Origin: an uncultured Pseudomonadales bacterium
GTDB taxonomy: Bacteria > Pseudomonadota > Gammaproteobacteria > Pseudomonadales > Porticoccaceae
Length of the DNA stretch: 34,412 nucleotides
Assembly: GCA_905478975.1 (NCBI GenBank)
Contig: CAJQKW010000081.1
Location: forward strand, 1-34,412
Direction of reading: 5' to 3'
The notes under the pieces: model-generated
Told to the model about the DNA's origin: nothing
The model's database searches: none
Seen by the model: only the letters and a program-made list of their open reading frames with translations
Position numbers and translations under genes: made by a program
Shown here: positions 2,273 through 7,261 of the stretch, one piece after another
Layout: the number at the start of each line of letters is the position of its first letter
How positions within the stretch are numbered: position 1 is the stretch's first letter

Positions 2273-5200
2273 ATGATGATCCTCACCGGCGCACCTTCTC
2301 TGTCTGCGTTTAGACGTAAAAAACTTCTTTCAACACTACAGCAAAAAGTGCCCTCTACGGTTTCAGTTTACGCCGAATATGTGCATTTCGCCGAACTGAC
2401 TCAGCCGCTCTCTACGAGTGGGGTGGAAACACTGCAGGCACTGCTGACCTATGGTCCGCGAGAAGAGAAAACTGCCACCAAAGGACAGTTGATTTTAGCG
2501 GTACCTAGACCTGGGACTATTTCTCCCTGGTCGAGCAAGGCGACGGATATAGCCCATAACTGCGGCCTCGATCAGGTTGTCAGAGTCGAACGTGGCACGG
2601 CGTATTATGTTCAGGGGCAAGAGCATTTCACTGAGCAGCAACTGGCCGATCTGGGTGCCGAGCTGCATGACCGTATGGTTGAGTCAGTGCTACATGAGCT
2701 ACAGCAGGCCGAAGTGTTATTTAGTCATCACAAACCAGCGCCGGTCGCGACTGTCGATACTCTGGGCGGTGGAGTTGATGCACTGCGAAAAGCCAATGTC
2801 GAGCTGGGTCTGGCACTGGCCGAGGACGAGATAGAGTATCTGGTGGAGAGCTTTGAGGGGCTTAAACGCAACCCCACTGACGTCGAGCTAATGATGTTTG
2901 CTCAAGCCAACTCCGAGCACTGCCGTCATAAAATTTTTAATGCCAGCTGGACCCTCGACGGTGAAGACCAAGAACATTCCCTGTTTGGCATGATTCGCAA
3001 TACCTACAAGGTCAATGGCGAAAATGTTCTCTCGGCTTACTCAGATAACGCCGCGGTAGTGGTGGGCACCGAGGGTGGTCGTTTCTACCCAGATCCGGCG
3101 ACCAAGCTCTATGGCTACAGCCAAGAGCCCGTGCATCTACTGATGAAAGTGGAAACCCATAATCACCCAACCGCTATCTCTCCCTATGCTGGTGCGGGTA
3201 CTGGTTCCGGCGGCGAGATTCGCGATGAAGGGGCCGTGGGTCGCGGCTCGAAACCGAAAGTGGGACTGGTGGGCTTTAGCGTCTCCAATCTCAATATTCC
3301 CAACTACAAGCAGTCTTGGGAGGAAGAGTATGGCAAGCCGGAGCGCATTGTCTCGGCACTGCACATTATGCTCGAGGGACCAATTGGTGGCGCTGCCTTT
3401 AACAATGAATTTGGCCGCCCCAATATCTGCGGCTATATGCGCAGCTTTGAAGTGGATTTTGACAACCAGCGTCGCGGCTATCACAAGCCGATTATGATCG
3501 CCGGGGGTTACGGCAATATCCGCGCCGACCATGTCGACAAACCTGAATTTAAACCCGGCGCACAGTTGATCGTGCTCGGTGGCCCGGCTATGTTGATTGG
3601 TCTCGGGGGTGGTGCGGCATCGTCCATGGCCACCGGCTCCAGCTCGGCGGATCTGGACTTTGCCTCAGTGCAACGCATGAACCCAGAAGTGGAACGCCGC
3701 TGCCAGGAAGTCATCGATCAGTGCTGGCAGCAGGGTGATAACAACCCCATAGCCTTTATTCACGATGTCGGCGCAGGCGGTCTCTCCAATGCTCTGCCCG
3801 AACTGGTCAAAGATGGCGGCACTGGCGGTCATTTTCAGCTGCGAAAAGTGCCCAATGATGAGCCCGGTATGGCACCAGTGGCAATCTGGTGCAATGAAGC
3901 ACAGGAACGCTATGTGCTGGCCATTGAACCTCGTGACCTGACGCGCTTTTTGGAAATCTGTCACCGAGAGCGCTGCCCAGTAGCTGTAGTCGGTGAAGCG
4001 GTTGAAGATAAAACCATTACTGTCAGCGACAGCTACTTCAAAAATGATCCCGTAGATCTGCCCATGTCGGTACTCTTTGGCAAGGCGCCAAAGATGCATC
4101 GCATTGCCGAACGTGACCAGGCTGAAGGCAAGCCTTTCGCTACCGATAATTTAAATATTGAAGACGCCGTATTCCAAGTGCTGCGTCACCCCACAGTGGC
4201 GAGCAAAAATTATTTGATCACCATTGGCGACCGCACCGTTGGCGGCATGGTTGCTCGCGATCAGATGGTCGGCCCCTGGCAGATTCCGGTGGCTGACTGT
4301 GCTGTGACCACAGTGACTTATGACAGCACTGCCGGTGAAGCCATGGCCATGGGCGAACGCACACCTCTGGCACTGATTAATGCACCGGCTTCAGGACGTA
4401 TGGCGATTGGTGAAGCGATTACCAATATCGCCGCCGCACGCATTGCTCAGATGCAAGATATCAAGCTCTCAGCCAACTGGATGAGCGCCGCCGGTCACCC
4501 CGGCGAAGATGAAAAACTCTATCGCGCAGTGCAAGCAGTGGGTATGGAACTCTGCCCGGCTCTGGGAATTACTATTCCGGTGGGCAAGGACTCTATGTCC
4601 ATGCGCACCACCTGGACTGATGGCGATAAAGACAAGGCGGTAACTTCGCCTATGTCACTGATCATTACCGCCTTCTCGCCAGTTCTCGATGTGCGTAAAA
4701 CGGTAACCCCACAGCTGCGTACCGACGCCGGCGAAACCCAGCTACTGTTGCTCGATCTGGGTGCCGGCGCCATGCGTATGGGCGGCTCGATTCTCGCTCA
4801 AGTGAATCAGCAGATGGGTGATACAGCGCCGGATTTAGACAATCCGGCACTGTTGAAAAACTTTTTTGATGCTATGCAGCTCTCCCTTGAGCAGGGCGAT
4901 ATTCTCGCCTATCACGATCGCTCTGATGGCGGTCTGCTGGCCACTCTGGTTGAAATGTCCTTTGCCGGACACGTAGGTATCTCTGTAGATGTCTTTGGTC
5001 TCGGCGACGACCCCATTGCCGCGCTGTTTAATGAAGAGCTGGGCGCCGTGATTCAGGTCTCCGCCGAGCGCACCAATGCAGTGGCAGAGCGCTTTAGTGA
5101 TGCCGGTGTCGATGTGCATCTGCTGGGTGGTTTAAACAGTCATCAAACTGTCGAGATTATCAATAAAAAGCTGCCATTGTTTAAGCGCCTGCGGGTTGAT

Positions 5201-6145
5201 TTGCTGCGCACCTGGACCGAGACCTCCTACCGTATGGCGGCACTGCGTGACAATGCCGACTGCGCCCTGGAAGAGTTCAATAATATTGCCAGCGACGACC
5301 CTGGTCTGTCGGTGAATCTCAGTTACGATCCCAGTGACGATATAGCCGCACCCTATATTAATTCCGGTGTTCGGCCTGCCGTGGCGATTCTGCGGGAGCA
5401 GGGGGTTAACAGTCATCTGGAAATGGCCGCGGCATTTGATCGCGCTGGGTTCGATGCAGTGGATGTGCATATGAGTGATCTGCTGGCTGGTCGTCGGGTG
5501 CTCAGTGACTTTGGCGGCGTGATTGCCTGTGGTGGTTTCTCCTACGGTGATGTCTTGGGTGCTGGCGAAGGCTGGGCCAAGACCGTGCTGTTTAATGAAC
5601 AGATTCGCGATCAGTTCCAGAGCTTCTTTCAGCGTTCCGACAGCTTTAGTCTCGGCGTCTGTAATGGCTGTCAGATGCTCAGTAATCTCAAGACATTGAT
5701 TCCCGGTGCTGAACTCTGGCCGCGCTTTGTACGTAACCATTCCGAGCAATTTGAAGCGCGCTTCTCGCTGGTACGGGTTGAAGAGTCGCCCTCTATATTC
5801 TTGCAGGGTATGGCCGGATCGCATATGCCGATTGCCATTTCCCACGGCGAGGGTCGCGCTGAGTTCTCGTCGCAAAAAGCTATGGATCGATTGCTTTCAA
5901 GCAATCAAGTGGCGATGCGTTTCCTCAATAATCATGGCGAGGTTGCATCCAGTTACCCGGCCAATCCCAATGGTTCGCCAGAGGGTATTACTGGTGTTTC
6001 GAGTAGCGACGGTCGCGCCACATTGATGATGCCGCATCCAGAGCGGGTCTATCGCACGGTGCAGAATTCCTGGCATCCGGATGATTGGGGTGAAGATGGT
6101 GCCTGGATGAGGATTTTCAGGAACGCACGAAAGTTTGTCGATTAA
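2273..6145 (+). CDS. purL: Phosphoribosylformylglycinamidine synthase (FGAM synthase, large single-chain type)
   Basis: It performs the fourth step of purine synthesis: FGAR + glutamine + ATP give FGAM. The 1290-aa length is that of the fused enterobacterial/eukaryotic type (E. coli 1295 aa). Domains in order are a PurS-like N-terminal part, a linker, two AIRS-type ATP-binding halves (conserved [12 protein letters not shown] stretch near residue 290) and a C-terminal class I glutamine amidotransferase domain. Its catalytic triad is C1130 (GVCNGCQ), H1255 and E1257 (PHPER). The first codon could equally be the adjacent ATG at 2276; there is no strong ribosome site for either. It diverges from mltF and is followed by the DUF5062-like gene in the same direction. 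The frame is intact. Confidence 0.97.
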
Positions 6146-6223: not shown

Positions 6224-6487
6224 ATGTCAAAGCTACCCAATGAAGCAGAGTTATTTAAGAAGGCACTCCAGGTTGGCGCTGTGTATGCCAAAAAGCGCGC
6301 CTATGGCGAGATTGAAGAGACTGATTCGGTAAAGCTGAAGGTTGAGTTTATCTACAAGGTGTTGGTGGAAGATAAGCTGATTCAGCCGTTGGCGAAAGAG
6401 AATATTAGTGATCCGAATATGCGCCATAAGCTGGCGCTGTGGTTGTCGCGGCAGTTGCCGGAGGGGCATGCACTGTTGAAAGAATGA
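6224..6487 (+). CDS. Small DUF5062-like protein of unknown function
   Basis: This 87-aa, lysine-rich soluble protein has no signal peptide or membrane segment. The pattern K-x-K-V-E-F-I-Y, then L-V-x-D-K-L-I-Q-P-L, then H-K-L-A-L-W-L-S-x-Q-L-P resembles the DUF5062 family of gammaproteobacteria, as I recall it. The function is not known and I assign none. A good ribosome site (GGAGG at 6212-6216, seven bases before the ATG) supports translation. It lies 78 bp after purL on the same strand and could be co-transcribed. It is followed by the long inverted repeat at 6547-6697, which may end the transcript. Confidence 0.8.
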   Translation: MSKLPNEAELFKKALQVGAVYAKKRAYGEIEETDSVKLKVEFIYKVLVEDKLIQPLAKENISDPNMRHKLALWLSRQLPEGHALLKE

Positions 6488-6546
6488 CTGCATGGGGCTG
6501 TTCTTTGGTCATCCCGGCCAAGGGATCTCTTGGTTGGGCGCGGGCA

Positions 6547-6697
6547 AAGCCATGCAGACCCTTTGCGATCGGCCCCATAAGTTTGTTATTTTCAGCGTTC
6601 GCGCAACTCGCTATCGCTCAAACAGGGCGCTCTCTTAATCTGAAAAGAACAAACTTATAAGCGGGCCCTGATTGATCGCAAAGGGTCTGCATGGCTT
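6547..6697. repeat. Long interrupted inverted repeat (MITE-like or large hairpin)
   Basis: The outer arms 6547-6570 and 6674-6697 are perfect 24-bp inverted copies. The inner arms 6577-6595 and 6640-6658 match over 19 bp with one mismatch. Short unpaired stretches (6571-6576 and 6659-6673) separate inner from outer arms, and 6596-6639 forms the central loop. As RNA this would be a hairpin of about 43 base pairs. No open reading frame inside is credible, and no target duplication is evident at the ends. It could be a non-autonomous mobile element, a repeat family member, or a terminator/processing structure between the DUF5062-like gene and rnpB. Confidence 0.85.
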
Positions 6698-6842
6698 CGC
6701 TGGGAGATAGAGGGTGCTGATGGTGGATGTCTCCGCTAGGCTCTAGATAACCGGGCGCAGTGCCTTCGCGACTACAGTGCTCTATGGCCATTCGAAATGG
6801 CTGTCCAACAACCAACAAACCCCCATAACAGACCAATAGCTG

Positions 6843-6851
6843 TGCTATTAT
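6843..6851 (+). promoter_or_regulatory. Extended -10 promoter of rnpB
   Basis: TGC followed by TATTAT (6846-6851) is a good extended -10 element. The distance to the expected RNase P RNA 5' end (about 6858) is seven bases, right for a start site. The -35 position (6823-6828) does not match consensus, as is common for extended -10 promoters. Confidence 0.65.
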
Positions 6852-6857
6852 CCCGCC

Positions 6858-7240
<383 letters not shown>

Positions 7241-7261
7241 AATTTTACATAGACGATCCAC

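Follow-up and report, generated by a model that had tools for sequence, protein, structure and literature searches.

attC sites have a stem of free sequence, bases that remain unpaired on one side only, a variable tip and the core boxes RYYYAAC/GTTRRRY. Their folded bottom strand lies preferentially on the leading-strand template (PMC11023631; this and all further sources are cited from excerpts of their text). REP/REPIN elements, with their RAYT transposases of the GTAG and CGTC families, are non-autonomous intergenic palindromes downstream of genes that occur in many copies, fold as single strands and in some genomes form inverted doublets (PMC3733652, PMC3116915). MITEs such as ERIC, NEMIS and YPAL are non-coding, 70-300 bp in size and situated next to genes (PMC3733652). 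Replication template switching has been described for RNA hairpins (PMC8794818).

The window, i.e., the whole stretch of 34,412 nucleotides analyzed here, contains a palindrome of about 150 bp between a small ORF (6224-6487), labeled DUF5062-like in an earlier sequence-only reading, and rnpB; an ORF nearby (2273-6145) is presumably purL-like. The perfect 24-bp outer arm and the 19-bp inner arm with one mismatch described in that reading were confirmed: the outer arms are 27 nt long with one mismatch and a perfect run of 24, and the inner arms are 19 nt long with one mismatch. Five inverted repeats were found in the window (at least 16 nt, spacing of at most 250), the outer arms being the longest. 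The predicted RNA fold of the + strand at 6530-6710 had an energy of -87.3 kcal/mol, compared to -54.9 ± 4.0 kcal/mol for 200 shuffled sequences (z = -8.15), none of which equaled it. No promoter-like site was detected in 6300-7000, and the sole terminator-like match of the area was at 6500-6526 on the + strand, just left of the hairpin (shuffled sequences: 0.6 on average). Rfam gave no match to the element at the gathering threshold in the window and none up to E = 5 in 6450-6860, nor did it match in 17 loci of other taxa or in two Y1 loci.

Table 1 Features of the palindrome and its surroundings in the window
Feature	Position	Strand	Basis or remark
Remnant of flanking REP-like repeat (GTCATCCCGACAGAGCGNAGCGACGAGGGATCTC in other copies)	6509..6531		by eye; holds the terminator-like match
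Outer arm, left	6544..6570	- (folded strand taken as minus)	inverted-repeat search, covariation, strand counts
Short helix of GGTCCC type, left half (GGCCCC in the window)	6571..6576	-	pairs with 6663-6668, one mismatch common to most copies
Inner arm, left	6577..6595	-	inverted-repeat search, covariation
Apical helix, left	6601..6604		GCGC in the window; GCAC, AGAC and others elsewhere
Conserved apical loop AACTCGCTATCGCTCAAACA	6605..6624	-	minus strand reads TGTTTGAGCGATAGCGAGTT
Apical helix, right	6627..6630		covariation
Inner arm, right	6640..6658	-	inverted-repeat search, covariation
One-sided conserved bulge AAGC	6659..6662		76-copy alignment
Short helix, right half GGGCCC	6663..6668	-	covariation
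One-sided conserved bulge TGATT	6669..6673		76-copy alignment
Outer arm, right	6674..6700	-	sequence differs among copies, complementarity largely kept
ORF, 73 aa	6439-6660	+	mechanical ORF list; overlaps palindrome
ORF, 97 aa	6618-6911	-	mechanical ORF list; its end overlaps palindrome
rnpB	6858-7241	+	RF00010, 330 bits; neighbor of palindrome

The palindrome proved to belong to a repeat family with further copies in its own genome and in relatives, which the sequence-only reading had offered as one of its possibilities. BLASTN with 6500-6760 as a query found 12 further dispersed places in the genome of the window (11 at E 5e-11 or better, and a short one at 4e-5) and matches in 17 of 56 genomes including the window's own, all of one genus. 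A covariance model built from 44 copies had 14 matches in the window's genome; within the genus, 22 of the 50 genomes were positive, each with up to 20 copies. At the order level, it matched 25 of 293 genomes at E ≤ 1e-4, distributed over 8 of 118 genera, with no match in the six genomes listed from another genus of the same family. The loop pattern was present in 22 of 398 sampled genomes of the phylum, all 22 in the class of the window, and the reversed pattern in none.

Scanning named genomes for the loop extended the range further: the matches listed include Marinobacter, Variovorax, Ralstonia, Luteimonas, Methylophaga, Clostridium, Blautia, Pontibacter, Flammeovirga and others, and single matches among them may include chance ones. 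The exact loop occurred 1-75 times in each of 34 named genomes, which were picked as loop-positive; the reversed control was found 0 times in 33 of them and twice in one. The highest counts were obtained for Clostridium sp. KNHs205 (75), Sedimenticola (63) and Flammeovirga OC4 (55). At 89 of 98 sites, at least 20 left-right pairs were possible between the 45-base flanks of the loop (nine fell short), versus 20 of 98 with swapped flanks. The same loop caps unrelated, self-complementary arms in Proteobacteria, Clostridia and Bacteroidetes. In phages, 80 records matched part of a 30-base loop query (listed E 0.6-2), none covering 80% of it, and one microvirus record was exact over 18 bases; among plasmids, 9 of 72,556 records matched one 43-base query of the Variovorax type. 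We name the family conserved-loop hairpins. Its copies are dispersed, with a near-fixed loop and bulges and with arms that drift but stay paired, and one strand is preferred over the other. Among the papers listed when open full texts, which leave out most subscription journals, were searched for the motif, nothing was recognizable as such a hairpin. Interspersed palindromic repeats are a known kind of element; a family defined by its loop, with free stems and a bias toward one single strand, seems to represent a new form of it.

For alignment, we used 76 copies, i.e., the window and 75 of 80 loci with one copy per locus; L038, L051, L056, L060 and L084 were excluded as weak, truncated or interrupted, and second copies at L064, L077, L079 and L086 were left unused. 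The loop AACTCGCTN(1-3)CGCTCARACA, both bulges and the adjoining GATC were near-invariant across these copies. Outside the genus of the window, AARCG-like and CTGATT-like bulges were present in seven of nine model matches (eight loci) and absent from both matches in L142. On the minus strand, the loop could form a GC-GATA-GC mini-hairpin, and GCGNAGC, a very stable DNA mini-hairpin, is found there in most listed matches of other taxa. In the genus, the loop cap is often GNNA with free Ns (GATA, GACA, GTCA). RNA tetraloops obey the GNRA rule, which these caps do not follow. A conserved G.U pair in GGTCCC/GGGCCC was considered and rejected, as most copies have a T.C mismatch there.

Several other repeats accompany the hairpins. 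REP-like GTCATCCCGACAGAGCGNAGCGACGAGGGATCTC repeats sharing a GAGCGNAGCGA tip flank many copies in inverted orientation (flanks of L039-L047; 6509-6531 in the window). A second palindrome family of the same genus (L111, L121, L103, L054, L055), with a related inner sequence of the CGTGAATACATCC...GGCCAGCAT type or CATGGATGTATTCACGGCGTG, has a similar design and different self-complementary arms, and shares its spot with the conserved-loop hairpin upstream of rnpB and after leuB. Inserted inside the hairpin at L056, L060 and L284, between GATCGG (GATTGG in L284) and CCCATG, is a third REP-like repeat (GGTCGCTCCCGG...CACATCCATGTGCATCG). Copies of subfamily B/C (L033-L036, L074, right end of L079-L083) often carry, immediately before the hairpin base when read on the minus strand, an extended -10-like TGCGATAAT or a variant of it, possibly a built-in promoter. 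In several Proteobacteria and Bacteroidetes (L153, L186, L212, L172, L194), an A-rich leader like AAAGTAAGCAAAGAAA precedes the hairpin and seems to be another domain that these copies have in common.

Pairing is strongly conserved while the paired sequence changes. RNAalifold predicted 50 pairs from the 76 copies, 39 of them with changes on both sides. In a subset of 44 copies picked for diversity, with the structure written by us on that same alignment, 93.4% of the cells were paired, compared to 83.6% after shuffling and 28-49% for slid structures. Changes on both sides were found for 26 of the 41 pairs, including all four of the apical helix, and amounted to 180 cells versus 51 in shuffled alignments, with none of 500 shuffles as high. 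We also compared 19 pairs of related copies, some of which share a member. Their unpaired sites differed at 43 of 999 positions, and 53 column pairs showed 67 one-sided versus 28 two-sided changes, of which 13 were of the transition type and 13 of the transversion type.

The rewriting of the stem can be illustrated with one genome of the genus, G004, where the left arm GAAGTGTTCGGGTAGATCC is identical to the reverse complement of the right flank of the host. The sequence of this flank occurs once in G019, there without the element and with one change. This is one clear case, and it is compatible with replication template switching (PMC8794818), which would explain the multi-base paired changes of the hairpin; template switching differs from the hairpin family in being a mutation mechanism and not an element, and one-sided changes in the related hairpin copies outnumber the double ones. 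The comparison of G004 with G019 gave the idea that arms are made from the target at each insertion. We dropped it as a general rule, given that the subfamilies also have sequence in common outside the variable arm segment. At L070, the arms reach about 65 nt at a contig end, which is either an assembly artefact or true growth of the palindrome.

When a transition removes one partner of a pair, one strand shows A.C and the other G.U, and cells of this kind therefore reveal the strand that folds. On the + strand of the window, the 76 copies contained 138 A.C and 27 G.T cells, i.e., the wobbles are on the minus strand; with each column and type counted once, the ratio was 44 to 20. The other mismatches were 39 C.T, 29 C.C, 28 A.G and 23 others, one column in which T.C is usual being excluded. 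An initial notion that wobble is rare and therefore neither strand matters was discarded, as it rested on top-strand wobbles alone. The minus strand also folded better in 67 (RNA parameters) and 74 (DNA parameters) of the 76 copies, which share descent and are thus not independent counts, and in 73 and 77 of 97 hairpins of other genomes, respectively. With the loop masked, and with L226, sites cut by contig ends and flanks containing N excluded, the minus strand was better by 65:10 with one tie in the genus and by 56:24 among 80 hairpins of named genomes (p = 0.0005). For 16 further hairpins of Gammaproteobacteria the ratio was 10:6 (not significant), and for mutated symmetric palindromes used as a control 78:75 with three ties.

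The position of the hairpins relative to genes was classified with mechanical ORFs, among which rnpB does not figure, so some labels are rough; the counts given are raw ones. Placement is mostly downstream of genes. In the genus, 32 of 75 copies were between convergent ORFs, 23 in tandem and 2 in divergent contexts, with 18 undecided; for 88 copies of named genomes the numbers were 19, 24 and 8, another 4 copies being inside long ORFs and the other 33 undecided. Where the neighbors are in tandem, the + type strand was the sense strand at 18 of 23 sites for the genus and at 18 of 24 for named genomes (36:11 together, p = 0.0003), and the folded minus strand is thus antisense to its tandem neighbors at these sites. 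In Clostridium sp. KNHs205, the + type strand was the leading strand by GC skew for 52 of 75 copies (52:23, p = 0.001), which may only mirror gene orientation. As in attC, the fold of one strand matters, and the folded strand is found preferentially on the leading-strand template (PMC11023631). The two types of site differ in that attC cassettes form arrays next to an integrase, whereas the hairpin copies are mostly scattered, with few clusters (three in G057 and eight within about 2.4 kb in a Blautia genome). The one-sided unpaired bases and the free stem sequence are common to both, and the variable tip of attC contrasts with the conserved apical loop of our family.

The rarity of divergent sites in the genus and the terminator-like match beside the window copy would suit a bidirectional transcription terminator or a stabilizer of mRNA 3' ends kept between genes. 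However, of 67 copies, 5 had a T-run after the foot of the hairpin when the top strand was read and none when the bottom strand was read, the wobble bias favors the untranscribed strand in tandem contexts, and a terminator has no need of a fixed loop common to several phyla. We consider such a role highly improbable.

The occupancy of individual sites was compared between relatives. By eye, the element was present upstream of rnpB in the genome of the window, G001, G023, G018 and G004. At this place G009 has two elements, in the other orientation, G032 probably has one, and G017 has a fragment; in G057, three elements follow the same DUF-like ORF in tandem. The element was absent, also by eye, from G002, G003, G005, G007, G015, G019 and G020, where the spacer after this ORF measures 50-102 bases, from the spacers of about 520 bases in G008 and G014, filled with other sequence, and from the 420 bases inspected in G010, G011, G016 and G022. 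Two further element sites are empty in G002: at the first, G023 and G056 carry other repeats, and at the second, G001 and G057 carry the element in the orientation opposite to that in the window's genome. In six genomes, the element is found in the spacer between two genes that we take to be leuB and asd from their protein sequences; there its core hardly varies, its arms are rewritten and most of the surrounding sequence cannot be aligned. Such retention by descent at some loci suggests that the element is of use to the host, as opposed to mobility alone.

These observations bear on the proposal of the sequence-only reading that the palindrome is MITE-like. It was borne out in part: the copies are dispersed, non-coding, within the size range of MITEs and next to genes, and a given site can be occupied in one relative and empty in another. 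Neither sharp ends nor a target duplication could be demonstrated (flanks are too diverged or inserts composite), nor a matching transposase. MITEs are alike in size, position and lack of coding capacity (PMC3733652), but the hairpin copies share a loop and not terminal repeats, and no transposase ends or target duplication were identified. A single copy conserved at one place in all relatives had been named as an argument against mobility; the outcome is mixed, as some loci are common to several species and others are not.

An alternative is a host-maintained structured RNA: transcription of the minus strand would yield a capped hairpin that is bound by an RNA-binding protein or works as a small RNA, and duplication would have spread the copies. 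The two-sided changes in pairs, the wobble bias toward one strand, the leuB-asd core kept while its spacer decays, and the -10-like TGCGATAAT of subfamily B/C seen by eye would agree with it. On the other hand, the folded strand is mostly antisense in tandem contexts, the region around the window copy has neither a promoter-like site nor an Rfam match, the genus caps break the GNRA rule, and site occupancy varies between relatives. The suggestion of the sequence-only reading that the palindrome may be the source of a structured RNA has very strong pair conservation on its side, but the favored strand is mostly antisense to tandem neighbors and no promoter-like site was found in 6300-7000. We regard this explanation as rather doubtful. 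An RNA acting from the transcribed strand was considered separately and is disfavored by the excess of A.C over G.T. Two points make DNA more likely than RNA as the folded strand: its position, mostly antisense to genes in tandem, and the lack of any promoter or terminator feature seen across the family.

An all-against-all BLAST of 92 loci found no family of neighbors in more than four loci, except for one cluster of seven; of the eight ORFs shown for that cluster, five overlap the repeat itself. Apparent inverted doublets about 150-480 bp apart, read off the match lists of several genomes, would suit REP/REPIN-class elements moved by RAYT (Y1) transposases, and in G142 a Y1 gene with GTAG REPs is situated between two inverted hairpins. 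This arrangement made Y1/RAYT transposases attractive as the mover, a candidate that did not hold up in general: Y1 transposases were present in 15 of 21 loop-positive versus 20 of 40 loop-negative genomes, and among 21 Y1 loci scanned with one mismatch allowed, only that of G142 had the (two inverted) loops, 18 had none, and L298 and L308 had a one-mismatch match each, which we take for chance. The Y1 genes of the window's genome and of G018 are flanked by unrelated inverted repeats. PF01797 was absent from seven copy-bearing genomes of the genus (G001, G002, G004, G011, G012, G013 and G017; not all complete) and present in five.

The hairpins resemble REPs/REPINs in being intergenic, multicopy, single-strand-folding and non-autonomous palindromes downstream of genes, with apparent inverted doublets in some genomes, but REPs have stems of 5-13 bp versus about 50 predicted pairs in the genus, a conserved stem instead of a conserved loop, and a link to RAYT for which the hairpin family has no clear counterpart (PMC3733652, PMC3116915). 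When the 28-nt stretch at each foot was searched on either strand, GTAG and CGTC tags were found in 0-3 of 67 copies each, except for GTAG on the right (14 of 67); such a tag is thus not the rule. The hairpin family lacks defining traits of REPs and of terminators, and movement as a RAYT-dependent REP/REPIN-class element seems quite improbable to us.

The G142 arrangement itself (L295, 767-2177) has arms of 104 nt that are 81% complementary and is a possible composite element. Inverted hairpin pairs 1.27 kb apart were also noted in two genomes (L292 1065-2337 in G021; G058:C174 357-1629). An autonomous element between those of G021 was considered and rejected, as the longer enclosed ORF looks by its motif like a metallo-hydrolase and not like a transposase.

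We propose, with a probability of about one half, that the palindrome is a non-autonomous interspersed element of the widespread conserved-loop hairpins, whose folded single strand is read by a putative trans-acting partner. A near-constant tip of 19-20 letters on a freely changing stem in very distant bacteria suggests that a partner molecule reads the folded strand. The strand 5'-TGTYTGAGCGNAGCGAGTT (minus in the window) would fold while single-stranded, and a protein acting in trans, most probably a recombinase or transposase of single strands, would read its capped tip and one-sided bulges, so that copies would spread at a low rate. The models for this preference are REPINs (PMC3116915) and attC sites, whose folded bottom strand is kept preferentially on the leading-strand template (PMC11023631); by analogy, the partner would be a recombinase or transposase that works in trans on single-stranded DNA. 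As it would be chiefly the shape of the stem that counts, its sequence would be free, and template switching during replication may repair or lengthen the stem. More tentatively, with the odds somewhat against it, the hairpins could constitute an unrecognized pan-bacterial class of single-strand elements unrelated to REPs, attC and known MITEs, with a loop-reading partner of their own and stems selected mainly for shape and repeatedly rewritten by template switching.

A loop of 19-20 nt kept in Proteobacteria, Clostridia and Bacteroidetes on unrelated stems, with up to 75 exact copies per genome, implies a conserved reader. Its identification would give a new system of single-strand DNA transposition or RNA binding, and the hairpin copies are a rich natural data set on the evolution of long hairpins.
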